Shown: one piece after another, positions 5,532 through 19,927 of the stretch
Numbering within the stretch: position 1 is the stretch's first letter
Layout of the letters: each line of letters opens with the position of its first letter
NCBI RefSeq assembly: GCF_000943565.1
Contig: NZ_JTDW01000002.1
Location: forward strand, 248,001 to 312,000
Length of the DNA stretch: 64,000 nucleotides
Direction of reading: 5' to 3'
DNA from: Neotamlana sedimentorum
GTDB taxonomy: Bacteria; Bacteroidota; Bacteroidia; Flavobacteriales; Flavobacteriaceae
Translations under genes and position numbers: made by a program
The notes under the pieces: model-generated
The model's input: only the letters and a program-made list of their open reading frames with translations
The model's database searches: none
Told to the model about the DNA's origin: nothing

Positions 5532-8339
5532 TTGAAGCTAACTAAATTTTTAAGTTTTGTAGCTGTAATATATTCTTTTTTAATAGTTACAGCTCAGGAA
5601 CGCCCGCCTATTCAAATTTTTACACCATCGCAATATGGTGCCGAAAATCAAAATTGGTCTATTTCTCAAGCCAAGAATCAATCTATTTTTATTGCTAATA
5701 ATAAAGGTTTATTAGAATTTAATGGCGCAAAATGGCGTGTTTATGCTTCGCCAAATAAAACGATTATCCGATCGGTAGCGGTTATAAACAACGTTATTTA
5801 TACTGGTAGTTTTAGAGAGTTCGGACTTTGGAAACGCGATAATTATGGAAATTTAAAATATACATCTTTATCTCAACAATTAAACATTCCATTTTTAGAA
5901 GATGAAGAGTTATGGAATATTATTGGTATAGACGATTATGTTCTGTTTCAATCCCTTAACAGAATTTATATTTACAATACTAAAAATAAAAGTTATTCTA
6001 TAATAAATTCTCAAGACACTATTTATCGTTTGTTTAAGGTCGACGATTCTATTTATTTTCAAAAGTTAACCAATGGTTTATTCGAAATAGTAAATGGTGA
6101 AGCACGTTTAGTTTCAAACCATAACATTATCAAGCAAAATTTACTGGTTAATGTTTTTAAGAAAAATAATAAATTGTTTTTTTTAACCGAGGATAATGGT
6201 TTTTACTATTTAGAAAATAATGAAATATTGCCATGGCAAATTCCTGCAAGTAGTTCTTTAGAAAAATTACGCATTTACAGTAGTAAAAAATTAAAAGATG
6301 GAAGTTTTGTATTAGGAAGTATTTCCGATGGTATTTTACTTTTATCATCTACTGGCGAAATTCTTCATAAAATCAATCAAAAATCTGGTTTAAGTAATAA
6401 TACGGTTTTATCGGTTTTTGAAGATGTTGAAAATAACATTTGGTTAGGCTTAGAAAACGGTATTAACTGCATCAATATAAAATCACCTTTTAGTATTTAT
6501 AATGACACCGAAGGCCATATTGGAGCTGTTAATGCTTCAGTTTTACATGATAATTACTTATACATTGGTACTAACCAGGGGTTGTTTTATAAACGATATA
6601 AAAGTAACGAAGATTTTAAGTTTATAAACGGAACTCAAGGTGCTGTTTGGTGTTTAAATATAATTGATAATCAGTTATTTTGTGGTCATAATTCAGGCAC
6701 ATTTTTAGTTAGTAAAAATCAGGCTAATTTAATTTTGAATGTACAAGGAACTTGGAATATTAAAAAACTTAACGATAGTTTATTAATTCAAGGTAATTAT
6801 ACTGGTTTATATCTTTTAGAAAAAGGTAAAAATACTTGGAAACTTCGTAATAAAATTAAAGGCTTTAATATTTCTAGTCGTTATTTTGAAGTGCTTAATA
6901 GTAAAAATGTTTTTGTAAGTCATGAATATAAAGGAGTGTTTAATATTACCCTTAATAATGCACTTAACGAAGCAGTTAAAATTTCGCAAGAAGCTATTGA
7001 AACCGGCCTAAAAACCAGTTTAATTAAGTACGAAAACAACATTTATTATTCCCAAATTAGTGGCGTTTATAAGTATAATAAAACCGATAAATCTTTCGAG
7101 CGTGATTCTATTTTTAGTCAGCTTTTTAATAAAGAAGAGTATATTTCTGGTAAACTTATTGTCGATAACCAAACGAATAAACTTTGGGCAACTTCGGTTT
7201 CTGGTTTAAGTTACATGGCGAGTAGTAAACTTAGTAATACGCCAAAAATAAATCATATTGCTATACCAAGTCATTCTAGAAATGATGTAGCAGGTTACGA
7301 GAATATAACACACTTAGAACAAAATAAATTCCTTTATGGTAATTCTACAGGCTATATTATTTTTAATTTAGAACAGGTAAAGCAAAAACCATTTAAAGTT
7401 TATTTAAATAGAGTCATTAATAGTGCTTTTAAAAATAGAAACGATTCATTAATTTTTGTAAACACTAGTAAAGCGCAAAAGTTTAAATACGCTAATAATA
7501 ATATTCGATTTACTTTTAGTGTTCCAGAATATCAAAAATATGCTTTAGCCGAGTATCAATATCAATTAGAAGGCATTCAAAACACTTGGAGTAAATGGAG
7601 TAAAAAACCCGAAGAATTTTTCGAAAATTTACCGCATGGAAACTATACTTTTAAAGTACGCGCCAAAATAGGAAGTACACCTTCTACCAATACCGAAACA
7701 TATAGTTTTACGATACAACGACCTTGGTATATTTCTAATACCATGATGATTTGTTATGGTGTTATGGTGCTGTTATTTTCTTGGTTTATGCACAACCAAT
7801 ATAAGCGAAGTTTTAAAAAGCAACAGAAAAAATTAATTATTAAAAAACAACGTGAACTAGAATTAAAAGAACTTGAAAATAAAGAACAATTAACTCGATT
7901 TAAAAACGATAAACTGCAACAAGATATTGAAAATAAAAACCGTGAACTTGGTATTTCTACCATGAACTTAATCAAGAAAAATGAGTTTTTAAATAATCTT
8001 AAAAAAGAACTTCAAAATGTAAACGATGTTAAATCTATAAAACGAGTAATTAATATTATTGATAAGAATATTAATAATACAGACGATTGGCATTTGTTTG
8101 AAGAAGCTTTTAATAACGCCGATAAAAATTTCCTTAAAAAAATAAAACAACTGCATCCAGAACTCACCTCAAACGATTTACGTTTATGTGCCTATTTGCG
8201 TTTAAATTTAGCTTCAAAAGAAATTGCGCCATTACTTAATATTTCTCCTCGAAGTGTTGAAGTAAAACGTTACCGATTGCGAAAAAAGATGAATTTAAAG
8301 CACGAAGCCAGTTTAACCAATTATATTTTAAGCGTATAG
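5532..8339 (+). CDS. Membrane-bound Y_Y_Y / LuxR-type transcriptional regulator of the glucan locus
   Basis: 935 residues. A signal peptide (1-21, ending VTAQ) is followed by a periplasmic beta-propeller region with Reg_prop-like repeats (for example NTVLSVFEDVENNIWLGLENG near 290). Then come a Y_Y_Y domain (about 660-735, LAEYQYQLEGIQNTWSKW and NYTFKVRA), one membrane helix (about 738-756), a charged coiled coil (about 760-850) and a C-terminal LuxR-type helix-turn-helix (LTSNDLRLCAYL, SKEIAPLLNISPRSVEVKRYRL). No histidine kinase or receiver domain is present, unlike classical hybrid two-component systems. This suggests direct coupling of periplasmic ligand sensing to DNA binding. The start must be TTG at 5532: an in-frame stop lies 12 bases upstream and the signal peptide begins there. 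It precedes SusC on the same strand and is probably its activator. Confidence 0.88.
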   Translation: MKLTKFLSFVAVIYSFLIVTAQERPPIQIFTPSQYGAENQNWSISQAKNQSIFIANNKGLLEFNGAKWRVYASPNKTIIRSVAVINNVIYTGSFREFGLWKRDNYGNLKYTSLSQQLNIPFLEDEELWNIIGIDDYVLFQSLNRIYIYNTKNKSYSIINSQDTIYRLFKVDDSIYFQKLTNGLFEIVNGEARLVSNHNIIKQNLLVNVFKKNNKLFFLTEDNGFYYLENNEILPWQIPASSSLEKLRIYSSKKLKDGSFVLGSISDGILLLSSTGEILHKINQKSGLSNNTVLSVFEDVENNIWLGLENGINCINIKSPFSIYNDTEGHIGAVNASVLHDNYLYIGTNQGLFYKRYKSNEDFKFINGTQGAVWCLNIIDNQLFCGHNSGTFLVSKNQANLILNVQGTWNIKKLNDSLLIQGNYTGLYLLEKGKNTWKLRNKIKGFNISSRYFEVLNSKNVFVSHEYKGVFNITLNNALNEAVKISQEAIETGLKTSLIKYENNIYYSQISGVYKYNKTDKSFERDSIFSQLFNKEEYISGKLIVDNQTNKLWATSVSGLSYMASSKLSNTPKINHIAIPSHSRNDVAGYENITHLEQNKFLYGNSTGYIIFNLEQVKQKPFKVYLNRVINSAFKNRNDSLIFVNTSKAQKFKYANNNIRFTFSVPEYQKYALAEYQYQLEGIQNTWSKWSKKPEEFFENLPHGNYTFKVRAKIGSTPSTNTETYSFTIQRPWYISNTMMICYGVMVLLFSWFMHNQYKRSFKKQQKKLIIKKQRELELKELENKEQLTRFKNDKLQQDIENKNRELGISTMNLIKKNEFLNNLKKELQNVNDVKSIKRVINIIDKNINNTDDWHLFEEAFNNADKNFLKKIKQLHPELTSNDLRLCAYLRLNLASKEIAPLLNISPRSVEVKRYRLRKKMNLKHEASLTNYILSV

Positions 8340-8567: not shown

Positions 8568-11500
8568 ATGAGACACACGCTAATTAAATGTTTAGCCTTT
8601 TTCTTATGTGTATTGTCCTATGCTCAAACTACCAATTTGAGCGGTACAGTTCAAGATGAAACCGGTTTACCTGTTCCTGGTGCCAATATCATTATTAAAG
8701 AAACAAACAATGGAACTACCACAGATTTTGATGGTAATTTTACACTAAGTAAAGCTAAAATTGGTGCAACTATTACAGTAAGTTTTATTGGTTATATTAC
8801 TAAAGAAATAGTTATTACAGACAGTAAAAACCTAACCATTACATTAAAAGAAGATGTATCGCAACTTGATGAAGTTGTAGTTGTTGGTTATGGTACACAA
8901 AAGAAAAAAGATGTTACAGGAGCTGTTTCTACAGTTTCTGCCGAAACATTAGAAGATTTAAAACCTATCGATGCCGCTCAAGCCCTTCAAGGTACATCTG
9001 CCGGAGTTTCGGTTACGGCTCCTTCGGGTTCTCCTGGTGGTAATTTTAATATTTTAATTCGTGGAGTTAGTTCCAACCTTAATAATGGGCCGTTAGTAAT
9101 TATCGATGGTTATAAAGGCGATTTAAACTCTATTAACCCAAGTGATATTGAAACGTTTACCATTTTAAAAGATGCGCAAGCGGCTATTTATGGTATTCAA
9201 GGCGCTAACGGTGTGGTGTTAGTTACCACAAAATCTGGTAAGAAAAATGCGAAAGTTAAAATTAACTACACGGGTTATACGGGTATACAAGAAACCACTA
9301 GAAAATTACCATATTTAAATGCTACAGAATACGCTTTAATTTTAAACGAAAGTTATGCGGCCAATGGGCAAGCCTTACCATATCCAAATGTAAGTGGCTT
9401 AGGTGTTGGTGTCGATTGGCAAGATCAATTATTCGAAAGTGCGCCTATTACAAGCCATAGTTTATCCGTAACCGGTGGTGGAGAAAAAAGCACTTATTAT
9501 TTTGGTGGTTCTATTTTAGAGCAAGATGGTATTATTGCAAGCGATAAATCTAATTTTCAACGTGCCAATGCCAAAATTAAATTAAGTTTCGATGTTTCCG
9601 ATAAATTAAAATTTACAACTTCGGCAAACTACTTTGCTAATAATCGTGCTACAATTGGCGAAAATGCTTTGGGAACACCATTATTCAACGCTTTAAATTA
9701 TGCACCAACCTATAGTCTAAATCAAGAAGATACTAGTGGATTTTTAGGAAACGAAGTAGTGAATCCTTTATCTCAAATAGCAAATACCTTTAACGACTAT
9801 AAAGGAAGTTCTATTGAAGGAACCTTTCAAGCTGATTACGAACCTATCGAAGGTTTAACCATTACCTCACGTATTGGTTTAAAAGCCTACAACGACACAA
9901 ATAAAACCTTTGCTCCTATTGTAAATTACGGTTCGGGTAAAGTGTTTAATAACGACCGTAGCAGTGTAACACAAACTAAAAACACCAATAATTCCTATAC
10001 TTGGGATACCTTTGCTACATACAACAAGGGTTTTGGTGAAAATCATAATACAACTTTTACTTTGGGTACTAGTTCACAACGCGCTTGGGGCGATAATTTA
10101 CAAGCCACTGGTTTCGATGTACCTAATAATTCTTGGGAATTTGCCGATATTTCTTTAGCCAATGGTTTAAGCGAAGCAAAATCTACAAGCTCATACATTT
10201 ACGATACGCGTTTATCATCATATTTCGGAAGATTACAGTACGATTACAATAGTAAATATTTATTATCGGCAATGATTCGTCGTGATGGATCTTCAGATTT
10301 CGCACCAGAAAACCGAATCGATTATTTTTATTCGGCTACTGCAGGTTGGAAAGTTTCCGATGAAAACTTTTTAAAAGATTCAAAAACAATCAACTTTTTA
10401 AAACTTCGTGCCAGTTACGGTACGCTTGGTAATAATGTAGGGGAAGATTTATATCGAGCTTTATTAAGTGGTGAAGCTACTTATGTTTTCGATGGTGCTT
10501 TGGTTACTGGAACAGCAAATGGTAGAATACCTAATGCTGATGCTAGTTGGGAAACTGCCGAAAAATTAGATATTGGTTTAGATTTAAATTTATTTGATAA
10601 CAAACTTGAAATTGTTGCCGATTATTTTGTTGAAGATAGAAACGATTTATTAATTGGAGATTTTCCAATTTCAGGAATTATTGGTGGTAGTGCTCCTGGT
10701 GCTGGTTTGCCAACCGTTAATGCTGGTACAACAAGAAATAAAGGGGTGGAGTTATTTTTAAATTATAAACAATTTATTAGTGACGATGTTTCGTTTGGGT
10801 TAAGTTATAATGTTACTAAAATTGATGGTGAAGTTACAGCGGTTAACAACAATATTGTGTCCGAAGGTGGTTCGTTTAGTGTTGGGCAACCTGCCATTGC
10901 TAGAATGGAAGTTGGGCAGCCTATTGGTTATTTCTACGGATTAAAAACCGATGGTATTTTTCAAAATCAAGCCGTAGTCGATGCGCATCCTTCGCAATCT
11001 GGATTAGGTGCCGAGGCTTCTCCTGGCGATATTCGTTTTGTTGATGTTAATGGCGATGGCGAAATTACTATCGACGACAGAACGTATTTAGGTAAACCAG
11101 TGGCCGATTATATTATGGGGCTTAACTTAAGTTTCAATTATAAAAACTTCGATTTTGGAGCTTACATGTATGCCGAATTAGGTAAAGAAACTGTACGAAA
11201 CTACGAACGCGATCAGCCTAATGTAAATCGTTTAAATCTGTATTTAAATCGATGGACAGGCGAGGGTACAAGTAATACCGTACCGCGTGCTACAACGGCT
11301 GGAACTACCAATAAATTGTTTTCCGATTTTTATGTTGAAGATTCTTCATTCTTAAGAATTCAAAACATCCAATTAGGGTATTCTTTACCCAATGCTGTAA
11401 TCGAAAAGTTAGGCATGAGTAAATTCCGTTTATATGCTTCTGTAAATAACGCTTTTACTTTTACTAAATACAATGGTTACGACCCTGCTGCAACCAATGG

Positions 11501-11582
11501 AGACGCTATTGGTGGTGGTATCGATTATGGATTTTATCCTATTTCAAGACAATTTATCATTGGTTTAAACTTATCAATTTAA
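8568..11582 (+). CDS. SusC-like TonB-dependent outer membrane glycan transporter
   Basis: 1004 residues. Signal peptide (1-20, ending SYAQ), then a carboxypeptidase-regulatory-like beta-sandwich (about 22-100, GTVQDETGLPVPGANI), the SusC signature LDEVVVVGYGTQKKKDVTGA (about 100-120), a plug domain with LIRGVSS and GANGVVLVTTKSG, and a long outer-membrane beta-barrel. It imports oligosaccharides across the outer membrane with TonB/ExbBD energy, in complex with the SusD lipoprotein encoded 10 bases downstream. The enzymes encoded further on indicate beta-1,3-glucan oligosaccharides as cargo. Length is typical of SusC. It is the first gene of the six-gene operon. Confidence 0.96.
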   Translation: MRHTLIKCLAFFLCVLSYAQTTNLSGTVQDETGLPVPGANIIIKETNNGTTTDFDGNFTLSKAKIGATITVSFIGYITKEIVITDSKNLTITLKEDVSQLDEVVVVGYGTQKKKDVTGAVSTVSAETLEDLKPIDAAQALQGTSAGVSVTAPSGSPGGNFNILIRGVSSNLNNGPLVIIDGYKGDLNSINPSDIETFTILKDAQAAIYGIQGANGVVLVTTKSGKKNAKVKINYTGYTGIQETTRKLPYLNATEYALILNESYAANGQALPYPNVSGLGVGVDWQDQLFESAPITSHSLSVTGGGEKSTYYFGGSILEQDGIIASDKSNFQRANAKIKLSFDVSDKLKFTTSANYFANNRATIGENALGTPLFNALNYAPTYSLNQEDTSGFLGNEVVNPLSQIANTFNDYKGSSIEGTFQADYEPIEGLTITSRIGLKAYNDTNKTFAPIVNYGSGKVFNNDRSSVTQTKNTNNSYTWDTFATYNKGFGENHNTTFTLGTSSQRAWGDNLQATGFDVPNNSWEFADISLANGLSEAKSTSSYIYDTRLSSYFGRLQYDYNSKYLLSAMIRRDGSSDFAPENRIDYFYSATAGWKVSDENFLKDSKTINFLKLRASYGTLGNNVGEDLYRALLSGEATYVFDGALVTGTANGRIPNADASWETAEKLDIGLDLNLFDNKLEIVADYFVEDRNDLLIGDFPISGIIGGSAPGAGLPTVNAGTTRNKGVELFLNYKQFISDDVSFGLSYNVTKIDGEVTAVNNNIVSEGGSFSVGQPAIARMEVGQPIGYFYGLKTDGIFQNQAVVDAHPSQSGLGAEASPGDIRFVDVNGDGEITIDDRTYLGKPVADYIMGLNLSFNYKNFDFGAYMYAELGKETVRNYERDQPNVNRLNLYLNRWTGEGTSNTVPRATTAGTTNKLFSDFYVEDSSFLRIQNIQLGYSLPNAVIEKLGMSKFRLYASVNNAFTFTKYNGYDPAATNGDAIGGGIDYGFYPISRQFIIGLNLSI

Positions 11583-11592
11583 TACAAGCATC

Positions 11593-13071
11593 ATGAAAAT
11601 ATATATAAATAAAACAGTTAAAAGTATACTGCTTGTTTTAGTACTTTTTGGTGCTAATTCTTGCGGTGATTCTTACCTTGAAGAGGTAGATCGTTATAGT
11701 ATAGATTCCGAGAATTATTTTAATTCCGAAGACGATTATTATCAAGCCCTTGTTGGTGCTTACGATTTGTTACAATCTACATATCTCAATGTTATTTTAG
11801 GCGAAATAGCTTCCGATAATACCTTATGTGGTGGCGAAAGTGCTACCGATGTTATTGGTTGGCAACAAATTGATGATATGATTCATACGCCTGTAAATAG
11901 TCAACTTAAAAACCTTTGGGATTGGATGTATGCCGGTGTTAATCGAGCTAATTTTATCCTAGAATTTCAAGATAAAACTGATTTTGATGGTAGAGAAATC
12001 ATTATTGGTGAAGCGCGATTTTTAAGAGCTTATTATTATTTTGAATTAGTAAAATGGTTTGGTCCAATTCCCTTAAAAGAAACACGTTTTCAAATTGGCG
12101 ATGAAACTAGTTTACCACGCGCTTCTGTAACCGATGTGTATGCTTTAATTGAAGCCGATTTAAAATATGCTATCGATAACTTAAACTATACGGCACCTCA
12201 AATTGGAAGAGCAACAAAAGGATCGGCTCAAGCACTATTAGGAAAAGCCTATTTGTATCAGGATAAATTTTCTGAAGCTGCCAGTGTTTTGAATAATTTA
12301 ATTGAAAACGGACCTTATGATTTGGTTACCGATTACGATACTATTTTCGAAAACGAAGGTGAAAATAATATAGAATCTGTTTTCGAAGTACAATATTCTG
12401 ATGCCGAAGGTGCTGGTTTCGATTGTTTACAATGTAGCGAAGGTAATGTTGCTGTTGGTTTTAACGGTATTCGTAATTATTCTGGTCCGTTTTTCGATTC
12501 TGGTTTTAGTTTTAATGTACCAACTCAAGAAGTGGTTGATGCTTTTGAAGCCGACGATTTACGTAAAGATGTAGCTATTTTAGATATTGAAAATTGGGCA
12601 GCTTTAAATGCCGCTACATTTGGTACGGGTTTCGAACATACAGGGTATTATAACCGTAAATATATTGCCCGTAAAGGCGATTTAAATACAGGCGATCAAA
12701 ACCTTACAAATCCTAATAACTACAGAGCCATTCGTTTTGCCGATGTATTATTAATGGCAGCCGAAGCTTATAATCGTGGAGATATAGACGATACCAAAGC
12801 ACAACAGTTTTTAAACCGGGTTCGTGCCAGAGCTTTTGGAGATAACAATCATGAGGTTACTTCAACAGGAGCAGCTTTAACCGATGCTATTGCTCACGAA
12901 CGTCGTGTAGAATTGGTAGGTGAAGGGCATCGTTTTTTCGATTTGGTAAGAACCGAAAAAGCAGCTCAAGAAATTGATGGATTTACCGCTGGTAAACACG
13001 AAGTTTTTCCTATTCCCTTTGAAGAAATTCAATTTTCTAATGGAAACTGGGAACAAAATCCAAACTACTAA
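11593..13071 (+). CDS. SusD/RagB-like glycan-binding lipoprotein
   Basis: 492 residues. A lipoprotein signal with predicted lipidated C24 (FGANSCGD) is followed by SusD-type helical TPR units: ARFLRAYYYFELVKWFGPIPL (split by the canonical W-F-G-P), KGSAQALLGKAYLYQDKF, and a C-terminal half with RFADVLLMAAEAYNRG, FLNRVRARAF and ERRVELVGEGHRFFDLVR. These are diagnostic SusD/RagB motifs. It is the surface lid that binds glycan over the SusC pore. The gene starts 10 bases after SusC and ends 12 bases before the PKD lipoprotein, so co-transcription is very likely. Confidence 0.96.
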   Translation: MKIYINKTVKSILLVLVLFGANSCGDSYLEEVDRYSIDSENYFNSEDDYYQALVGAYDLLQSTYLNVILGEIASDNTLCGGESATDVIGWQQIDDMIHTPVNSQLKNLWDWMYAGVNRANFILEFQDKTDFDGREIIIGEARFLRAYYYFELVKWFGPIPLKETRFQIGDETSLPRASVTDVYALIEADLKYAIDNLNYTAPQIGRATKGSAQALLGKAYLYQDKFSEAASVLNNLIENGPYDLVTDYDTIFENEGENNIESVFEVQYSDAEGAGFDCLQCSEGNVAVGFNGIRNYSGPFFDSGFSFNVPTQEVVDAFEADDLRKDVAILDIENWAALNAATFGTGFEHTGYYNRKYIARKGDLNTGDQNLTNPNNYRAIRFADVLLMAAEAYNRGDIDDTKAQQFLNRVRARAFGDNNHEVTSTGAALTDAIAHERRVELVGEGHRFFDLVRTEKAAQEIDGFTAGKHEVFPIPFEEIQFSNGNWEQNPNY

Positions 13072-13083
13072 AAAAACAAGACT

Positions 13084-15189
13084 ATGAATTCATTAAAACA
13101 TATATTTAAATTTTGCCTGATAGCATTATTCTTAGCGAGTTGTGTTCAGGAAGACGATAATACCAATTATGTAGATAACATAGAGGCACCGTCAAACATT
13201 TCGGCAGCTGTTACCGTAACGCAAGATAATACAGGCTTAGTAACGCTAACACCACTTGGTGAAGGCGCTATTAGTTTTGTAATTGATTATGGAGATGGTT
13301 CGGGAACATCAAACGAAATTGAACCAGGAGATAGTGTTGAACATACCTATACCGAGGGCACTTACGAAGCATCAATTACAGGTACAGGTATAAATGGTTT
13401 AACAACTACAGTAACACAACAAGTAATAGTGTCTTTTAGAGCTCCAGAAAACTTAGTCGTTACTATCGAGAATGATGCAGCCATATCAAAGCAAGTTAAT
13501 ATTACAGCAACCGCCGATTTTGCAACCATGTACGATGTGTATTTTGGCGAAGCTGGAAACGACGATCCGGTTTCTGCCAATAATGGCGAAAGTGTGTCGT
13601 ATGTGTATCAAGAGGCTGGTACTTATACTATTCGTGTGGTATCAAAAAGTGCCGCAATTGCAACTACCGAATATACCGAAGAGTTTGAGGTTACGGCTAT
13701 TCTTCAGCCTTTAAATTCGGCGCCAACGCCATTGTCTCGTAATACAGAAGATGTTATTTCTATTTATAGTGGGGCTTACACCAATGTAGAAGGCACAAAT
13801 TATTTCCCAGATTGGGGACAAGCAGGACAAGGTAGCGGATGGGCAGAATTCGATTTAAATGGCGATACCATGCTGCAATACATTAATTTAAGTTACCAAG
13901 GTATTGCTTTAGCAGATGGTACTTCAGTGGATCTATCAGGTATGGAATATCTGCACCTTGATGTTTGGACAGCTGAAGGCATTAATACTATTGAAACCTC
14001 ACTTATTAACAACGCAGGAGGAACCGTAACCGAAGCTCCTGTAGTTTCTGCGTTAACAGCAGGTGAGTGGACTAGTATTGAAATTCCTATTTCAGATTAT
14101 ACAGATCAAGGACTTACTGTTACCGAAATTTTCCAATTAAAATTCGTAGGCGATCCTTGGGCTTCTGGTACTGTTTTTATAGATAATATTTATTTCTATA
14201 AGGAGCCAACTATGGTTTCAACTGGTTTAGCTGGAACATGGAAACTAGCGCAAGAAGCTGGAGCTTTAGGTGTTGGTCCTGCGGTAGGAGATATTGGTTG
14301 GTGGAATTGTGATGCCGATTGTGTCGATTTAAGAGCCTGTTATTACGACGATACTTATGTATTTGGAACCGATGGCTCTTTTACAAATAATTTAGGTAGC
14401 GAAACCTGGACCGAAGGTTGGCAAGGTGGTAGCGATTCTTGTGGAGCACCAATAGCACCACACGATGGTTCTAACACTGCAACTTATGTTTATAATGAAA
14501 CTGCAGGAACAGTTACTCTTAATGGCACAGGGGCATTTATAGGGCTTGCAAAAGCTGTTAATTCTGGTGAATTAAGTAATCCGGCAGATGCTCCAGCTTC
14601 GGTAACTTATAATGTTGATTTTATAGATGCTAATACTATTTCTGTTTATATCGAAGCGGGTGCAGGTGTATTCTGGCAATATAAATTAGTTAGAGATGGT
14701 GCAGTGGTTTCGCCAGTTGTAGGTACTTGGAAATTAGCCGAAGAGGCTGGGGCTTTAGGTGTTGGTCCTGCGGTTGGAGATATTGGTTGGTGGAATTGTG
14801 ATGCCGATTGTGTAAGTGCAAGAGCGTGTTATTACGACGATACTTATGTATTTGGAACCGATGGCTCTTTTACAAATAATTTAGGTAGCGAAACCTGGAC
14901 CGAAGGTTGGCAAGGTGGCAGCGATTCTTGTGGAGCACCAATAGCTCCGCACGATGGTTCTAACCCTGCAACTTTTACTTACGATGACAGTACTGGAACA
15001 ATAACTTTAAACGGATTAGGTGCTTTTATAGGATTAGCTAAGGCTGTTAATAGCGGTGAATTGAGTAATCCTGTAGATACCCCTGCTTCTGTAGTTTATA
15101 ATGCCACGTTTATCGATAATAATACCATGTCGGTTTATATTGAATCTGGTGCTGGCGTTTTTTGGCAATACAAACTGGTAAGAATTTAA
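13084..15189 (+). CDS. PKD-domain surface lipoprotein with CBM-like domain and duplicated C-terminal domain
   Basis: 701 residues, in the SusE/SusF-like position. Lipobox with C20 followed by VQEDD, which fits the Bacteroidota surface-lipoprotein export signal. Order: a PKD domain (about 35-120, FVIDYGDGSG), a second PKD-like domain (about 120-205), a beta-sandwich resembling carbohydrate-binding modules (about 215-377, DVISIYSGAY to FIDNIYFY), then two copies (384-539 and 547-701) of an unnamed domain beginning GTWKLA.EAGALGVGP. Each copy has four to five cysteines and ends in WQYKLVR. No catalytic domain is visible, so the likely role is glucan capture at the cell surface alongside SusD. 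The same C-terminal domain occurs in the next protein. The two copies are nearly identical at DNA level in part, indicating recent duplication. Confidence 0.85.
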   Translation: MNSLKHIFKFCLIALFLASCVQEDDNTNYVDNIEAPSNISAAVTVTQDNTGLVTLTPLGEGAISFVIDYGDGSGTSNEIEPGDSVEHTYTEGTYEASITGTGINGLTTTVTQQVIVSFRAPENLVVTIENDAAISKQVNITATADFATMYDVYFGEAGNDDPVSANNGESVSYVYQEAGTYTIRVVSKSAAIATTEYTEEFEVTAILQPLNSAPTPLSRNTEDVISIYSGAYTNVEGTNYFPDWGQAGQGSGWAEFDLNGDTMLQYINLSYQGIALADGTSVDLSGMEYLHLDVWTAEGINTIETSLINNAGGTVTEAPVVSALTAGEWTSIEIPISDYTDQGLTVTEIFQLKFVGDPWASGTVFIDNIYFYKEPTMVSTGLAGTWKLAQEAGALGVGPAVGDIGWWNCDADCVDLRACYYDDTYVFGTDGSFTNNLGSETWTEGWQGGSDSCGAPIAPHDGSNTATYVYNETAGTVTLNGTGAFIGLAKAVNSGELSNPADAPASVTYNVDFIDANTISVYIEAGAGVFWQYKLVRDGAVVSPVVGTWKLAEEAGALGVGPAVGDIGWWNCDADCVSARACYYDDTYVFGTDGSFTNNLGSETWTEGWQGGSDSCGAPIAPHDGSNPATFTYDDSTGTITLNGLGAFIGLAKAVNSGELSNPVDTPASVVYNATFIDNNTMSVYIESGAGVFWQYKLVRI
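14233..15186 (+). repeat. Tandem 489-bp in-gene duplication
   Basis: Two direct copies with a 489-bp period: 14233-14721 and 14722-15186. The stretch 14338-14429 is identical for 92 bases to 14827-14918, including all third codon positions. The flanks have diverged modestly. The duplication keeps the reading frame and doubles a complete domain of the PKD lipoprotein. Confidence 0.95.
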
Positions 15190-15202
15190 AAATTTAAGAA
15201 AA

Positions 15203-16861
15203 ATGAAAAATATAAAATATAAAATTACAATCATACTTTCATTGGCATTAGTAGTTTTTAATTGTCAAGAAGATGATGCCACAATTGGAGATATTACAGC
15301 ACCAAATACTGTTGAAATTACGGCCGAAATTGTTGGTGCAGATACTGATAATCCAGATGGTGATGGTAGCGGATTTGTAAATTTAATTGCAACGGCAAAT
15401 AATGCCGTTAGTTATAAGTTCGATTTTGGCGATGGTTTAAGCGAAGTGGCGCCGTCAGGAGTAGTAACACATCGTTTTACTAATGTAGGTACGAATACTT
15501 ATACTGTTGTGGTAAATGCTATTGGTACTGGTGGTTTATCGTCTAGTACGGCTATGGAAATAACTGTACGAAGTGATTTTGACGATCCAGAATTAAAACA
15601 ATTACTTTCGGGTGGTTCGTCTAAAACGTGGTACTTAGCTTCTTCTGAAGCTGCTCATTTAGGTGTTGGTCCTGGAAATATTGGTGTGGATGCTGAAGGG
15701 TTTTGGTATCCAAAATGGTATGCAGCACAACCTTTTGAAAAATGTGAAGACGACATTAGCGCTTGTTTATGCGACGATGAGTTAACTTTTACTTTAGATG
15801 CTAACGGACAACTAACTTACGAATTAGATAATAACGGATTTACATTCTTTAATGCAGGACACCAAGGAATAGTTGGTGAAAATGCTGGTGAAGATGCCTG
15901 TTTTGCTTACGATACTTCTGGAGCTAAAATTGTGTCTTTAGCACCATCATTAACCGATTGGACTACTGTTCCCGATCCTGATTTTGCAGCACGCGGAACG
16001 GCTATGAATATTGCCGAAGGTGGATTTATGGGTTACTATGTTGGTTCTTCTGTTTACGATGTTATTTCAGTATCCGATACCGAATTATATGTTAGAACTT
16101 TAGATGCAAACGATTCTGGTTTAGCATGGTATCATAAATTTCAAACAAGTCCAGCAGATAATACATTTGAAACTGTTTTTACCAATTTGGTTTGGCAAGA
16201 CGAATTTGATATACCTGGTACACCCGATGCTACAAAATGGACCTACGATTTGGGTGCAGGCGGTTGGGGAAATAACGAAGTACAAACTTACACCAACAAT
16301 GTCGAAAATGTTATTGTTGAAGATGGTTTACTTAAAATTACAGCTAGAGCCGATGGTTCTGGTGGCTATACTTCTGCCCGATTAAAATCTCAAGATTTAC
16401 AAGAATTCACCTATGGAAGAGTAGAAGTAAGAGCAAAATTACCAGCGGCACAAGGTACATGGCCAGCTATTTGGATGCTTGGAGCAAATTTCGATACAGT
16501 TGGATGGCCAACGTGTGGAGAAATAGATATTATGGAACAAACCGGTCAAGATAAATTTAATACTTCTGCTGCTTTACATTTTCCTGGAAATTCTGCAGGC
16601 GATGCTATTACCGAAGAAACATCGAACGAAACTTCAACAACAGAATTTCATAATTATACTGTTGAGTGGACTTCAACTGCCATAAAAGTTTTAGTTGATG
16701 ATACCGTGTTTTTAAGTTGGGCAAATACATCAGATTCTGCTTTTAATGCCGACTTCTTCATGATTTTAAATGTAGCTATGGGCGGTACTTTAGGAGGAAC
16801 CATTGATCCGGCATTTACGCAAGACACTATGGAAATTGATTATGTAAGAGTTTATCAATAA
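15203..16861 (+). CDS. GH16 beta-1,3-glucanase (laminarinase), PKD-containing surface lipoprotein
   Basis: 552 residues. Lipobox with C21 followed by QEDD, a probable surface-export signal. A PKD domain (about 27-125, YKFDFGDGLSE) is followed by one copy of the unnamed LGVGP domain (about 128-312, beginning KTWYLASSEAAHLGVGP) and a GH16 catalytic domain (about 315-552). The catalytic motif GEIDIMEQTG gives nucleophile E440, assisting D442 and acid/base E445. Other GH16 laminarinase landmarks are GWGNNEVQTYT, GTWPAIWMLG and NVAMGGTLGG. Predicted endo-hydrolysis of beta-1,3-glucan such as algal laminarin at the cell surface. It starts 13 bases after the PKD lipoprotein and ends 3 bases before the GH3 gene. 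Pure laminarin versus mixed-linkage specificity cannot be read from sequence. Confidence 0.93.
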   Translation: MKNIKYKITIILSLALVVFNCQEDDATIGDITAPNTVEITAEIVGADTDNPDGDGSGFVNLIATANNAVSYKFDFGDGLSEVAPSGVVTHRFTNVGTNTYTVVVNAIGTGGLSSSTAMEITVRSDFDDPELKQLLSGGSSKTWYLASSEAAHLGVGPGNIGVDAEGFWYPKWYAAQPFEKCEDDISACLCDDELTFTLDANGQLTYELDNNGFTFFNAGHQGIVGENAGEDACFAYDTSGAKIVSLAPSLTDWTTVPDPDFAARGTAMNIAEGGFMGYYVGSSVYDVISVSDTELYVRTLDANDSGLAWYHKFQTSPADNTFETVFTNLVWQDEFDIPGTPDATKWTYDLGAGGWGNNEVQTYTNNVENVIVEDGLLKITARADGSGGYTSARLKSQDLQEFTYGRVEVRAKLPAAQGTWPAIWMLGANFDTVGWPTCGEIDIMEQTGQDKFNTSAALHFPGNSAGDAITEETSNETSTTEFHNYTVEWTSTAIKVLVDDTVFLSWANTSDSAFNADFFMILNVAMGGTLGGTIDPAFTQDTMEIDYVRVYQ

Positions 16862-16864
16862 GAT

Positions 16865-19147
16865 ATGAAACAATTAAAAATATACACGCTCCTAATTTTA
16901 TTTACAGCTTTAAGTTGTGGTAAAAATCAGGAGGTCATAAAGGATGAAAACAGTTCAGTTTCTTCAAACATAGAGAGTAAAGTTGAAGATTTACTTTCTA
17001 AAATGACATTAGAAGAGAAAATAGGACAAATGAACCAATACAATGGTTTTTGGGATGTTACTGGACCTACTCCAGATAATGGAGATGCCGCTAAAAAGTA
17101 TGAACATTTGCGTAAAGGTTATGTAGGCTCTATGCTTAATGTAACCGGAGTTGAAAACGTTCGTGCTGTACAAAAAATAGCGGTTGAAGAAACCCGATTG
17201 GGCATTCCTCTTATAATAGGTTTCGATGTTATTCATGGTTTTAAAACCTTAAGCCCAATTCCGTTGGCAGAATCTGCTAGTTGGGATTTGGAAGCTATTA
17301 AAAAATCCGCCGAAGTTGCAGCACTTGAAGCTTCTGCAGCAGGTATAAACTGGACCTTTGCGCCAATGGTTGATATTTCTCGCGATGCCCGCTGGGGTCG
17401 TGTTATGGAAGGCGCTGGCGAAGATCCGTTTTTAGGTTCTAAAATAGGTGTGGCCAGAATAGAAGGGTTTCAAGGTGTAGATTTAGGTTTAGAGCATACC
17501 ATAGCCGCATGTGCAAAACATTGGGCAGGATATGGTTTTGCAGAGGCTGGTAGAGATTACAATACAGTCGATGTTGGTACATCTACTTTAAACAATATTA
17601 TTTTTCCTCCATTTGAAGCCGCTGTAAATGCAAACGTGAGAACCTTTATGAATTCTTTTAATGAGCTTAACGGTGTTCCAGCAACAGGAAATAGTTATTT
17701 ACAACGTGATATTTTAAAAGGAAAATGGAATTTTGATGGTTTCGTTATTTCCGATTGGGGCTCTATGATAGAAATGGTTAATCATGGTTTTGCAAAAGAT
17801 AAAAAACAGGCAGCAGAATTATCTGCTACTGCAGGGTCAGATATGGATATGGAATCTTATGCTTATGTTACAGAATTAGCAAATTTGGTTAACGAAGGTA
17901 AAGTTTCAGAAGATTTAATAAATGATGCGGTTAAACGCATTTTACGCGTAAAATTCGAGTTAGGTTTATTTGACGATCCTTATAAATATTGCAATTTAGA
18001 GCGTGAAAAAGAAGTAACGGGAAGCCAACAAATACACGATGCTGTTCTAGATATGGCTAAAAAATCTATTGTGCTTTTAAAAAATGAAAATAATATACTT
18101 CCATTAGAAAAAGAAGGTCAAAATATAGCCGTAATAGGAGCTTTGGCTAACGATAAAACAAGTCCGTTAGGAAGTTGGAGAATAGGAGCAGAGGATGGTA
18201 CAGCGGTATCTTTTTTAGAAGGCATGAAACACTATCCTAATAACAAAATTAGTTACGCAAAAGGTGCTAATGTTATTACTGGAGACGCTTCTTTTCCTTT
18301 TGAATTAAACATTAATACAACTGATAAAAGTGAGTTTAGTAAAGCTGTTTCAACGGCTAAAAATGTAGATATAGTTGTCATGGTTTTAGGTGAACATGCT
18401 TTTCAAAGTGGTGAGGCTCGAAGCAGATCAGAATTAGGTTTACCAGGTGTTCAACAAGAATTGTTAGAAGCTGTTTATGCAGTTAATAAAAATATCGTTT
18501 TAGTGTTAAACAATGGTCGTCCGCTAACTATTCCGTGGGCAGATGCTCACATTCCAACTATTGTTGAAGCATGGCATTTAGGAACGCAAAGTGGTAATGC
18601 TATTGCTCAAGTTTTGTATGGCGATTATAACCCTAGCGGAAAGTTACCAATGACGTTTCCAAGAAGTGTAGGGCAAGTGCCTATATATTACAACTATAAA
18701 AATACTGGAAGGCCAACAGCAAACGAACCAAATAGTGTGTTTTGGTCGCATTATACCGACGTGAGTAATACACCGCTGTATCCGTTTGGTCATGGTTTAA
18801 GTTATACAACGTTTCAATATTCTAACTTAAATGTAACTGTTAAAAGTGAAAATGAAGTTGAGGTATCTTTCAATTTAAAAAACACAGGAAGTTTAAAAGG
18901 TAAGGAAGTAGCTCAGGTTTACATTCGCGATTTGTTTGCAAGTGTAACTCGCCCTGTAAAAGAATTAAAAGGCTTTGAATTAGTTGAATTACACCCTGGT
19001 GAAACAAAGCAAATTACTGTAACATTAACCGAAAATGAACTTGGTTTTTATAATAATTCAGGCGACTATGTTGTAGAACCTGGAGATTTTACAGTGTTTG
19101 TTGGTGGAAGTTCTAACACTGCTTTAGAAAACAATTTTACGTTATAA
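16865..19147 (+). CDS. GH3 beta-glucosidase (exo-acting, lipoprotein)
   Basis: 760 residues, a standard three-domain GH3 enzyme. Signal with predicted lipidated C18 (TALSCGKN), a TIM-barrel domain (about 45-365), an alpha/beta sandwich (about 400-625) and a fibronectin-III-like C-terminal domain (about 660-755). The nucleophile is D297 in GFVISDWGSM; KHWAGYGFAEAGRDYN and GRVMEGAGEDP are substrate-site motifs of BglX-like enzymes. It should cleave glucose from the non-reducing end of oligosaccharides released by the GH16 enzymes. There is no QEDD-type motif after the lipid Cys, so it probably faces the periplasm. The 3-base gaps on both sides indicate tight operon coupling. Confidence 0.94.
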   Translation: MKQLKIYTLLILFTALSCGKNQEVIKDENSSVSSNIESKVEDLLSKMTLEEKIGQMNQYNGFWDVTGPTPDNGDAAKKYEHLRKGYVGSMLNVTGVENVRAVQKIAVEETRLGIPLIIGFDVIHGFKTLSPIPLAESASWDLEAIKKSAEVAALEASAAGINWTFAPMVDISRDARWGRVMEGAGEDPFLGSKIGVARIEGFQGVDLGLEHTIAACAKHWAGYGFAEAGRDYNTVDVGTSTLNNIIFPPFEAAVNANVRTFMNSFNELNGVPATGNSYLQRDILKGKWNFDGFVISDWGSMIEMVNHGFAKDKKQAAELSATAGSDMDMESYAYVTELANLVNEGKVSEDLINDAVKRILRVKFELGLFDDPYKYCNLEREKEVTGSQQIHDAVLDMAKKSIVLLKNENNILPLEKEGQNIAVIGALANDKTSPLGSWRIGAEDGTAVSFLEGMKHYPNNKISYAKGANVITGDASFPFELNINTTDKSEFSKAVSTAKNVDIVVMVLGEHAFQSGEARSRSELGLPGVQQELLEAVYAVNKNIVLVLNNGRPLTIPWADAHIPTIVEAWHLGTQSGNAIAQVLYGDYNPSGKLPMTFPRSVGQVPIYYNYKNTGRPTANEPNSVFWSHYTDVSNTPLYPFGHGLSYTTFQYSNLNVTVKSENEVEVSFNLKNTGSLKGKEVAQVYIRDLFASVTRPVKELKGFELVELHPGETKQITVTLTENELGFYNNSGDYVVEPGDFTVFVGGSSNTALENNFTL

Positions 19148-19150
19148 AAG

Positions 19151-19927
19151 ATGAAACCAAGTTTAGTTATTGTTCTTTTTCTAAGTATTTTTTCTTATAA
19201 AGGTCAGGATACAGAATTATTATGGGAAGAAAATTTTGATGGAAATACTTTAAATGAATCAGTTTGGAATTTCGAGTTAGGTAATGGTTGTCCAAATATT
19301 TGTGGTTGGGGAAACAATGAGCTTCAAGAGTATACAAAAACCAATCATAAGGTGGAAAATGGTTTACTTACTATTACTGCAAAACATGAAGATTCGGTGT
19401 ATTCTTCAACAAGAATAACAACCAAAAATAAATTTCAATTTAAATATGGCAAAATTGAAGCTAGAGCTAAATTACCTGTTGGTAAAGGCTTGTGGCCAGC
19501 TTTTTGGATGTTAGGTAGTAATATTGATAAGGTGGGCTGGCCGAAATGTGGTGAAATAGACATTTTGGAATATGTGGGTAAAGAACCGCATAAAATTTTT
19601 AATTCGTTGCATACCCGGGATAGCCATGGAAACACGGTTAATACTAAAAAAACAAAAATTGAATCGATTGAAGAAGGATTTCATGTGTATTCAGCTAACT
19701 GGACAGAAACAAAAATTGAATTTTTTGTAGACAATAAGTTGTTATACACGTTTGCGCCAGATGAATTAGAGAATGATAATATTTGGCCATTTAATCAATC
19801 GTTTTACGTTATTCTAAACTTGGCTATTGGCGGTAATTTTGGTGGTCCAGAGGTTGATGATTCTATTTTCCCGCAAGAATTCGTAATAGATTATATTAAA
19901 GTATTTAAACACAAATATTCTGATTAA
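19151..19927 (+). CDS. GH16 beta-1,3-glucanase (single-domain, secreted)
   Basis: 258 residues. Short Sec signal peptide (cleavage near YKGQD, no lipobox) and a lone GH16 catalytic domain. The motif GEIDILEYVG gives nucleophile E135, D137 and acid/base E140. GWGNNELQEYT, GLWPAFWMLGSN and LNLAIGGNFGG match bacterial laminarinases. It lacks the PKD and LGVGP modules of the upstream GH16, so it is probably a soluble periplasmic enzyme acting on imported oligosaccharides. Last gene of the locus, followed by a strong terminator. Confidence 0.93.
   Translation: MKPSLVIVLFLSIFSYKGQDTELLWEENFDGNTLNESVWNFELGNGCPNICGWGNNELQEYTKTNHKVENGLLTITAKHEDSVYSSTRITTKNKFQFKYGKIEARAKLPVGKGLWPAFWMLGSNIDKVGWPKCGEIDILEYVGKEPHKIFNSLHTRDSHGNTVNTKKTKIESIEEGFHVYSANWTETKIEFFVDNKLLYTFAPDELENDNIWPFNQSFYVILNLAIGGNFGGPEVDDSIFPQEFVIDYIKVFKHKYSD

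Follow-up and report, generated by a model that had tools for sequence, protein, structure and literature searches.

A predicted lipocalin-like beta-barrel present three times in a laminarin gene cluster of Neotamlana sedimentorum

The window, a 64,000-nucleotide stretch of Neotamlana sedimentorum contig NZ_JTDW01000002.1, harbours a laminarin gene cluster in which a domain with the motif LGVGP occurs three times in two adjoining genes. The domain, predicted from its model to be a lipocalin-like beta-barrel, is probably a glycan-binding module of the kind found at the C-terminus of Bacteroides fluxus SGBP-B (BfSGBP-B), with a tandem of barrels and a beta-sandwich that would catch beta-1,3-glucan and a third barrel that would tether a GH16 enzyme. 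The evidence consists of the homology of the copy in the GH16 protein, the fold predicted for the lipoprotein copies, the lipoprotein anatomy, with signals judged by eye, and a PUL context seen across species. The barrel fold of BfSGBP-B, the laminarin PUL type and a BfSGBP-B-like domain in front of GH16 are already known; new elements are the divergent subfamily to which the lipoprotein copies belong, its occurrence in tandem, and the combination of a CBM30-like sandwich and two barrels in one lipoprotein.

Locus and domain anatomy

For marine Flavobacteriia, a passage of PMC6298971 describes laminarin PUL variant A as SusC/D and a GH3 framed by two GH16. By Pfam, the window locus contains the same gene set, SusC/SusD and a GH3 between two GH16 (Table 1), and two of the only three Pfam GH16 matches in the whole genome lie within it. 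The words PKD and hypothetical are absent from the text of the variant-A paper (PMC6298971), and its passages on the variant give no description of SGBP domains.

Table 1. Features of the laminarin locus, in positions of the window.
Feature	Position	Strand	Evidence
Regulator: Reg_prop propeller, Y_Y_Y, LuxR-type HTH	5532..8339	+	Pfam
SusC-like TonB-dependent transporter	8568..11582	+	Pfam Plug, CarbopepD_reg_2
SusD-like protein	11593..13071	+	Pfam SusD_RagB, 101 bits
SGBP-B-like lipoprotein, 701 aa	13084..15189	+	ORF, N-terminus, model, slot after SusD
Two PKD / Ig-like domains, residues ~35-118 and ~121-204 of 701-aa protein	13186..13695	+	Pfam, model strands
CBM-like beta-sandwich, residues ~218-378 of 701-aa protein	13735..14217	+	Model comparison
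SGBP-type LGVGP barrel, copy 1, residues 382-540 of 701-aa protein	14227..14703	+	AlphaFold model, fold match
SGBP-type LGVGP barrel, copy 2, residues 545-701 of 701-aa protein	14716..15186	+	Identity to copy 1, model
Lipoprotein, 552 aa: PKD, LGVGP barrel, GH16	15203..16861	+	ORF, Pfam, lipobox by eye
PKD domain, residues ~35-121 of 552-aa protein	15305..15565	+	Pfam PKD, 25.6 bits (cut-off 23.5)
GH16-type LGVGP barrel, copy 3, residues 139-316 of 552-aa protein	15617..16150	+	phmmer to 7kv5
GH16 catalytic domain	16172..16858	+	Pfam, 85.7 bits; motif GEIDIMEQ
GH3 enzyme, probable beta-glucosidase	16865..19147	+	Pfam
Second GH16	19151..19927	+	Pfam

The 701-aa protein has the features of an SGBP-B, namely PKD and CBM-like modules and the slot after SusD. 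Read by eye, its N-terminus displays a putative signal peptide and a lipobox-like LASC followed, after one residue, by QEDD. The PKD pair scored 30.9 bits with PKD_4 (cut-off 27) and 22.8 bits with PKD, just below the cut-off of 23.5. The middle sandwich had no Pfam match and its PDB sequence search was empty at E≤10; by structure it matched CBM30 (2c24; VIA Z 14.4, rmsd 2.7 over 147), CBM11 (Z 13.0) and CBM29 (Z 12.0). This sandwich is shared with the SGBP-B of B. thetaiotaomicron (7kwb, VIA Z 9.6), the top Foldseek match, a protein with a tandem of CBM-like domains according to a passage in PMC12016534. In the full-length lipoprotein model, the strand order of copy 2 is that of copy 1. The GH16 domain of the 552-aa protein matched the GH16 endo-1,3-beta-glucanase 4bq1 (E 4e-59), and its GEIDIMEQ fits the GH16 signature ExDxxE.

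Relatedness of the copies and their link to BfSGBP-B

LGVGP was found twice in the 701-aa protein, at residues 395 and 558, and once in the 552-aa protein, at residue 153, the places where the initial annotation had recognised three copies, and the motifs described there as shared (W, EA, LGVGP, DD, G-F/M-G and a closing W) are present in them. Between copies 1 and 2, protein identity is 87% (BLASTP E 7e-103), and 386 of 462 bases agree in the DNA. The GH16 copy is 34% identical to copy 1 over 97 residues and 31% to copy 2 over 111, at a BLASTP E of about 5e-4 in a two-sequence comparison. So weak a value might be expected if the lipoprotein and GH16 segments were unrelated and their pattern had arisen by chance. 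The two types were compared in a non-circular manner, each HMM being built from one type only (E<1e-3, Z=100,000). The lipoprotein-type HMM reached only 6 of 33 GH16-type domains and gave the window GH16 copy a non-significant 8.6 bits, the best of 330 shuffled sequences scoring 7.8. The GH16-type HMM, however, matched 85 of 112 lipoprotein-type domains, among them the two window copies (1.3e-4 and 5.9e-5), none of the 330 shuffles was matched, and hhalign of the two profiles returned a probability of 97.9 and an E of 4e-13 (one comparison). The likeness thus goes beyond chance, yet the GH16 copy is only a distant relative. Since one type is linked to 7kv5 by sequence and the other by fold, and a cysteine pair is kept or lost jointly in both, chance similarity is so improbable that it was dropped.

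The paired cysteines of the initial annotation proved real. In the pair just mentioned, Cys 419/453, both cysteines occurred in 93 of 105 domains, both were missing in 12, and neither was ever found singly. Cys 409 and 413 occurred together in 31 of the 105 and were both missing from the other 74.

The PDB contains BfSGBP-B, the protein of a gut bacterium, as 7kv5, as 7kv6 with mixed-linkage glucotriose and as 7kv7 with laminaritriose. The GH16 copy (query 15584-16138) matched residues 126-284 of the 7kv5 chain at a phmmer E of 8.8e-9, its sole PDB sequence match at E≤1, and with the 552-aa protein the similarity to BfSGBP-B runs into the preceding PKD (residues 59-314, E 8e-15). The mixed profile (105 rows) had this glucan-binding protein as its sole PDB match at E≤10, with an E of 3.5e-14 and profile positions 2-154 of 156 aligned. 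In contrast, phmmer of the whole 701-aa lipoprotein against the PDB gave nothing at E≤1, nor did the profile of SGBP-type domains only (44 rows) at E≤10, which weakens a plain assignment of copies 1 and 2 to BfSGBP-B. With the direct sequence searches empty, these two copies are tied to BfSGBP-B through the GH16-type domains as intermediates and through predicted structure.

The AlphaFold model of copy 1 (14227-14697) had a pLDDT of 98, and 7kv5, 7kv6 and 7kv7 were its only Foldseek matches at E≤1e-3 (E 5.5e-7). They also fitted best by VIA (Z 13.9, rmsd 2.8, 135 residues aligned), the runner-up being a lipocalin-like protein at Z 9.1. A second model, made from lipoproteins only, matched 7kv5-7 over residues ~120-539 at a Z of about 14; its rmsd of 23 is uninformative because two separate domains are involved. 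Foldseek also listed WD40 and fatty-acid-binding entries, which were dropped for low probability or TM.

BfSGBP-B is presumably bimodular, with a PKD and a barrel, and the entry name and chain lengths agree; in the crystal paper (JBC 2021) the ligand is reportedly located on the barrel. It shares with the window the barrel fold, sequence kinship to the GH16 copy and its place as SGBP of a beta-glucan PUL. The window lipoprotein differs in having two PKD domains, a CBM30-like sandwich and a pair of barrels from a divergent subfamily; the barrel that resembles BfSGBP-B is, in the window, fused to GH16. Passages in PMC7157763 report laminarin binding by BfSGBP-B in affinity gels and ITC, the ligands being LdLam and EbLam laminarins, barley mixed-linkage glucan and, weakly, yeast glucan.

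In the literature searched, "BfSGBP-B" or the codes 7KV5-7 were found only in PMC7157763 and PMC11345257. The latter (Kalenborn 2024) has a passage in which the BfSGBP-B-like domain of Maribacter GH16_3 enzymes is called laminarin-binding, by homology. As described there, the Maribacter laminarinase shares the order PKD, BfSGBP-B-like domain, GH16 with the window enzyme, but it is ~700 aa long and is said to carry, within its GH16 fold, a second domain related to BfSGBP-B, whereas the window enzyme has 552 aa and one barrel; the Maribacter genes are scattered, those of the window lie in a PUL. The initial view of the module as unrecognised must accordingly be given up, the fold being already in the PDB with laminaritriose bound and a BfSGBP-B-like domain already named laminarin-binding in that passage. 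The accompanying guess of beta-1,3-glucan binding gains support from the kinship with BfSGBP-B, and with the PUL type and the Maribacter precedent it is well supported by homology.

Lipocalin likeness and distribution

Pfam and NCBIfam gave no match for the isolated window copies, and no Pfam lipocalin family matched the window proteins (E≤1) or copies (E≤0.01). Among 38 full lipoproteins, PKD was the only widespread Pfam match, others being confined to single members, such as Lipocalin_4 at E 0.0036. Of the 105 single domains, Lipocalin_4 matched three, none of them a window copy (best E 0.0037), and among ten further relatives the three-barrel protein of L035 scored 22.4 bits at a cut-off of 22.4. 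G-x-W, the lipocalin signature, stands in the first strand of 74 of the 105 domains. The Bacteroides lipocalin-like proteins 4qrl, 4gzv and 4iab resemble the barrel model of copy 1 (Z 8.7-9.1; 4qrl 9.1, 4gzv 8.9), over a shorter alignment than BfSGBP-B, ~100 against 135 residues.

Of 299 genomes sampled from the family of the window, 100 had the barrel, and so did 56 genomes of nine families in a phylum sample of 395. Matches below 80 bits, with fewer than 130 profile positions or with X were dropped, leaving 246 of 254 domain matches. Sixty loci were collected by the domain alone; among them SusC was detected in 51, SusD in 52, GH16 in 48 (fused included) and GH3 in 29, by phmmer with the window's own proteins for these four families (E≤1e-10, within 8 kb or to the contig end).

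Lipocalin-like barrels have varied roles, and the copy 1 model also matches the fold of Tannerella potempin E (Z 7.5). The barrel could on these grounds be a structural spacer, a SusC/D docking domain or a module with another lipocalin-type role, for example peptidase inhibition; the PFAM 13004 domains of BuGH16 bind no glucan and are probably spacers, as stated in a passage of PMC7157763. The closest relative is, however, a glucan-binding SGBP, GH16 lies close to the domain in 48 of the 60 loci (GH16 and GH3 being the enzymes covered), and a functional surface is suggested by the large number of invariant Trp, Glu, Gln, Lys and Asn residues. Such roles are hence improbable, and glycan binding is the preferred reading.

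Twelve regions around frames of ~300 aa or ~450-490 aa were picked by hand as illustrations. L122 and L123 follow the gene order of the window with two frames, one of 300-320 aa holding a single barrel and, after it, a GH16 frame of its own; Pfam PKD was not found in these one-barrel frames. When nine one-barrel proteins were compared with the N-terminal part of the window's GH16 protein, seven matched strongly (L122 and L123 at E of about 1e-34 to 1e-36), L131 weakly (0.00075) and L132 not at all. Broken GH16 genes were dropped as an explanation of the ~300-aa frames, as the N-terminal matches and separate GH16 frames fit fission or fusion.

Two subfamilies and the proposed role

In a tree of 161 domains from the named loci L003-L062 and the window, which also served for the identity comparison, SGBP-type and GH16-type domains formed two clades (support 100/99). 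The lipoprotein copies are a divergent subfamily, whose own sequence profile gives no link to a solved protein. Alignment A2 consisted of 105 rows chosen from the 148 left after 85% clustering; its "SGBP" group (76 rows) includes three one-barrel frames (L087, L088, L089) and its "GH16" group (29 rows) includes L046, a frame without GH16. Alignments A3 (38 rows) and A4 (44 rows) were selected by hand. W442, E444, Q447, K490 and N493 are invariant in the SGBP-type, W446 and E496 nearly so. These residues are mostly unconserved in the GH16-type, all 29 rows of which have gaps at positions 493 and 496, and part of the set lies on a loop missing from that type. The barrels of the lipoproteins come as tandem twos and threes, alike within each protein; the two-copy set (n = 35) includes L054, a protein with a T9SS tail.

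The lipoprotein-type barrels may, as a tentative proposal, constitute a separate glucan-binding family of lipocalin fold, with a site of its own made of the residues above and the loop absent from BfSGBP-B and the GH16-type. Its tandems would have been homogenised repeatedly within proteins, keeping repeated sites matched to a repeating polymer. The clade split, the different invariant set and the failure of the SGBP-only profile to reach 7kv5 might also mean that these barrels have changed their job within the fold, binding glycan at another face or by another feature (branch points, mixed linkages or a different polymer); the binding mode of BfSGBP-B would then not be transferable to copies 1 and 2. 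We consider this unlikely: the fold is the same, with 7kv5-7 the best match by far, and the barrels belong to the same PUL. From the shared PUL and the GH16 genes close by in 48 of 60 loci, the polymer is very likely still beta-1,3-glucan.

With BfSGBP-B as the guide to function, the two tandem barrels and the CBM30-like sandwich would capture chains of beta-1,3-glucan next to SusC/SusD on the cell surface, the two PKD spacers holding the sandwich outward and the tandem barrels possibly acting by avidity. The third barrel would tether a GH16 laminarinase, probably surface-exposed, to the same polymer, and oligosaccharides would move through SusC/D and then be cut by GH3. Copies 1 and 2 are thus proposed to bind beta-glucan, and most likely all three copies would help the cell to grip laminarin, although binding by each barrel and the exact ligand are extrapolated from the relative.

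More than 10% of the carbon dioxide fixed each year is attributed to laminarin in the abstract of PMC11345257, and PUL papers, in the passages concerned, tag some proteins beside laminarin enzymes only as "PKD" or "hypothetical" (PMC13188888, PMC6246565). SGBP-B proteins are noted in part of PMC12016534 for poor sequence similarity, and the barrel gives them a traceable part. A profile of the barrel would name a module in 100 of the 299 genomes of the family and in nine families of the phylum sample, and would show one module type serving both binding proteins and laminarinase.

Three copies of the LGVGP domain in a laminarin-type locus

The LGVGP domain is carried by two proteins of a laminarin-type polysaccharide utilisation locus (PUL), whose genes are listed in their order below. 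Two of the only three Pfam GH16 matches in the genome lie inside this PUL. In PMC6246565, a laminarin-expression figure for Formosa includes a PKD-domain protein among the PUL proteins, known there by its PKD label.

Features of the laminarin-type PUL of Neotamlana sedimentorum (window positions)
Feature	Position	Strand	Remarks
Propeller/LuxR regulator	5532-8339	+	
SusC	8568-11582	+	
SusD	11593-13071	+	
701-aa lipoprotein	13084-15189	+	two PKD/Ig, sandwich, two barrels
Middle beta-sandwich of the lipoprotein	13735-14217		CBM30/CBM11-like by fold, no Pfam
LGVGP copy 1	14227-14703		in the lipoprotein
LGVGP copy 2	14716-15186		in the lipoprotein
552-aa GH16 lipoprotein	15203-16861	+	PKD, barrel, GH16
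LGVGP GH16 copy	15617-16150		between PKD and GH16
GH3	16865-19147	+	
Second GH16	19151-19927	+	

The initial annotation had placed the domain three times in this locus, and this was confirmed by the LGVGP motif, which the lipoprotein has at residues 395 and 558 and the GH16 protein at residue 153. Copies 1 and 2 were 87% identical as protein and shared 386 of 462 bases. Identity of the GH16 copy was 34% to copy 1 (97 residues) and 31% to copy 2 (111 residues), with weak BLASTP matches (E about 5e-4, two-sequence comparison). Kinship was tested with HMMs built apart for each type, which avoided circularity. Of 112 lipoprotein-type domains, the GH16-type HMM detected 85 (E<1e-3), both window copies among them; the lipoprotein-type HMM found only 6 of 33 GH16-type domains and missed the window GH16 copy, which scored 8.6 bits when the best of 330 shuffles reached 7.8. 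When the two profiles were aligned to each other, they matched with a probability of 97.9 (E 4e-13). W386, G398, P399, F427, Y509 and W531 (lipoprotein numbering) were kept in at least 90% of both types. The paired cysteines described earlier were borne out in 105 domains: Cys 409 and 413 were both present in 31 and both absent in 74, and Cys 419 and 453 were both present in 93, both absent in 12 and found singly in none. Because the latter are always kept or lost together, they are suggested to form one disulfide.

A predicted lipocalin-like barrel related to BfSGBP-B

The earlier view that this is not a recognised carbohydrate-binding module holds in that no Pfam or NCBIfam model matched the isolated window segments, but not in that the domain is traceable to a solved protein. 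The GH16 copy alone matched a single chain among solved structures, 7kv5 (E 8.8e-9), which was also the sole PDB match of the 105-domain profile of both types (E 3.5e-14). By their Foldseek titles, 7kv5 (apo), 7kv6 (with mixed-linkage glucotriose) and 7kv7 (with laminaritriose) are the surface glycan-binding protein (SGBP) B of Bacteroides fluxus, BfSGBP-B. An AlphaFold model of copy 1 (pLDDT 98), made from a mixed-type alignment (of its 105 rows, 29 were GH16-type and 3 were one-barrel frames), matched only 7kv5-7 in Foldseek at E<=1e-3. VIA-align gave Z 13.9 for these (rmsd 2.8, 135 residues), followed by a lipocalin-like Bacteroides protein with Z 9.1. In a full-length model based on 38 lipoproteins only, the strand order of the barrels was unchanged and 7kv5-7 were matched again.

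The predicted fold is a lipocalin-like barrel, since the first barrel (residues 135-233) of a three-barrel protein of Hyunsoonleella (L035, 6615-8465) scored 22.4 bits with Pfam Lipocalin_4, exactly the cut-off, and a G-x-W was found in the first strand of 74 of 105 domains, which we take to fit the lipocalin signature. The Lipocalin_4 match of L035 is the sole direct Pfam link at cut-off of the barrel family to the lipocalins; the window copies fell below the cut-off. In a Kordia protein (L042, 7500-9458), residues 591-612 matched Pfam TruB-C_2 with 32 bits (cut-off 21), the best stretch being 22 residues within a barrel; this match is probably spurious.

In affinity gels and ITC, BfSGBP-B bound laminarins and barley mixed-linkage glucan, and yeast glucan only weakly (PMC7157763). 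Homology and fold therefore support the proposed beta-1,3-glucan-binding module. The LGVGP domain is real and most likely a beta-1,3-glucan-binding barrel.

Divergent tandem barrels and a CBM-like sandwich

The profile of 44 lipoprotein-type domains had no PDB match at E<=10, nor had the full 701-aa lipoprotein at E<=1. In the tree, the GH16-type domains (34 rows) were separated from all others (127 rows) with support 100/99. W442, E444, Q447, K490 and N493 were invariant among the 44 domains, W446 and E496 nearly so; positions 493 and 496 were gaps in all 29 GH16-type rows, and BfSGBP-B resembled the GH16-type in this region (profile alignment, by eye). Given this tree split, these residues of their own and the PDB-blank profile, copies 1 and 2, modelled with the BfSGBP-B fold, may have a different binding face.

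Within-protein identity exceeded that of copy 1 to the median copy 1 elsewhere in all 35 two-copy proteins compared (loci L003-L062 and the window), and in 13 no other copy 1 compared was as close as the protein's two copies were to each other. Counted from the drawn tree, at least 12 of the 35 pairs are sisters, and 9 of these carry starred support. Other copies grouped by position, such as those of the window and Tamlana sargassicola (copy 1, support 100/84; copy 2, 99/73). As likeness within proteins and grouping by position occur side by side, the sequences point to repeated but not constant homogenisation (gene conversion) or re-duplication.

In the full-length model, the two barrels come after two PKD/Ig domains and a beta-sandwich (residues about 218-378). 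The sandwich had no sequence match in Pfam or the PDB; by fold it matched CBM30 (2c24, Z 14.4), CBM11 (6r3m, Z 13.0), CBM29 (Z 12.0) and B. thetaiotaomicron SGBP-B (7kwb, Z 9.6). From its modelled fold, it is likely another glucan-binding module. A JBC study of 2021 reportedly treats the tandem CBM-like SGBP-Bs of B. thetaiotaomicron and B. uniformis and the bimodular, barrel-ending SGBP-B of B. fluxus as distinct architectures; the window lipoprotein has parts of both architectures within a single chain. Neither this combination nor the SGBP-B lipoproteins' subfamily of divergent tandem barrels was found described in the literature searched, most subscription papers lying outside it.

Distribution, layouts and proposed role

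The domain was detected at E<=1e-3 in 100 of 299 genomes of the family sample and in 56 of 395 genomes, from nine families, of the phylum sample, the window genome counted in both. The 60 named loci were mostly from Flavobacteriaceae; Marinifilum is also among them, and four carry the label of gammaproteobacterial MAGs (L051, L055-L057). All 60 were picked by domain, not context, and phmmer with the window proteins (E<=1e-10, within 8 kb or to the contig end) found SusD in 52, SusC in 51, the regulator in 49, GH16 in 48 and GH3 in 29. The MAGs (SAR92 and Porticoccaceae, with L051 labelled Gammaproteobacteria only) encode proteins with one to three barrels, possibly by transfer or as misbinned contigs. 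In one of these proteins, of 1530 aa (L055, 1453-6042), three barrels stand beside Ig-like domains, a CBM6 and, at the end, an abhydrolase match just below threshold. Two other barrel proteins (L053, 3215-6292; L054, 2-1999) carry a C-terminal Por secretion (T9SS) tail, the latter with a sub-threshold CBM56 match.

Four layouts recur: two PKD, sandwich and two barrels (~700 aa); an N-terminal part and three barrels (~620 aa), most often adjoining a GH16 without barrel; a one-barrel frame like BfSGBP-B (~300 aa); and PKD-barrel-GH16 (~555 aa). L122 (7352-8251) and L123 (8205-9164) keep the window gene order, but the N-terminal part with barrel and the GH16 are two separate open frames, and the window GH16 protein has a matching N-terminal part. 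These sequences suggest a fusion for the window enzyme or a fission for the split frames.

PMC11345257 annotates, in Maribacter and other Flavobacteriia, a PKD and a BfSGBP-B-like laminarin-binding domain ahead of GH16_3, as well as another related domain that interrupts the GH16_3 catalytic domain. Because a BfSGBP-B-like domain is annotated there before GH16_3, the window GH16 copy is by analogy of an already known kind; the two are likened through their common homology to BfSGBP-B and set side by side by description.

Homology, predicted fold, anatomy and context of the barrels are plain from these comparisons; surface location, binding, ligand and avidity we infer. By homology to BfSGBP-B, the GH16 copy would anchor its enzyme to beta-1,3-glucan; the tandem barrels and the sandwich, on their PKD spacers, would gather polymer for GH16 and SusC/D.
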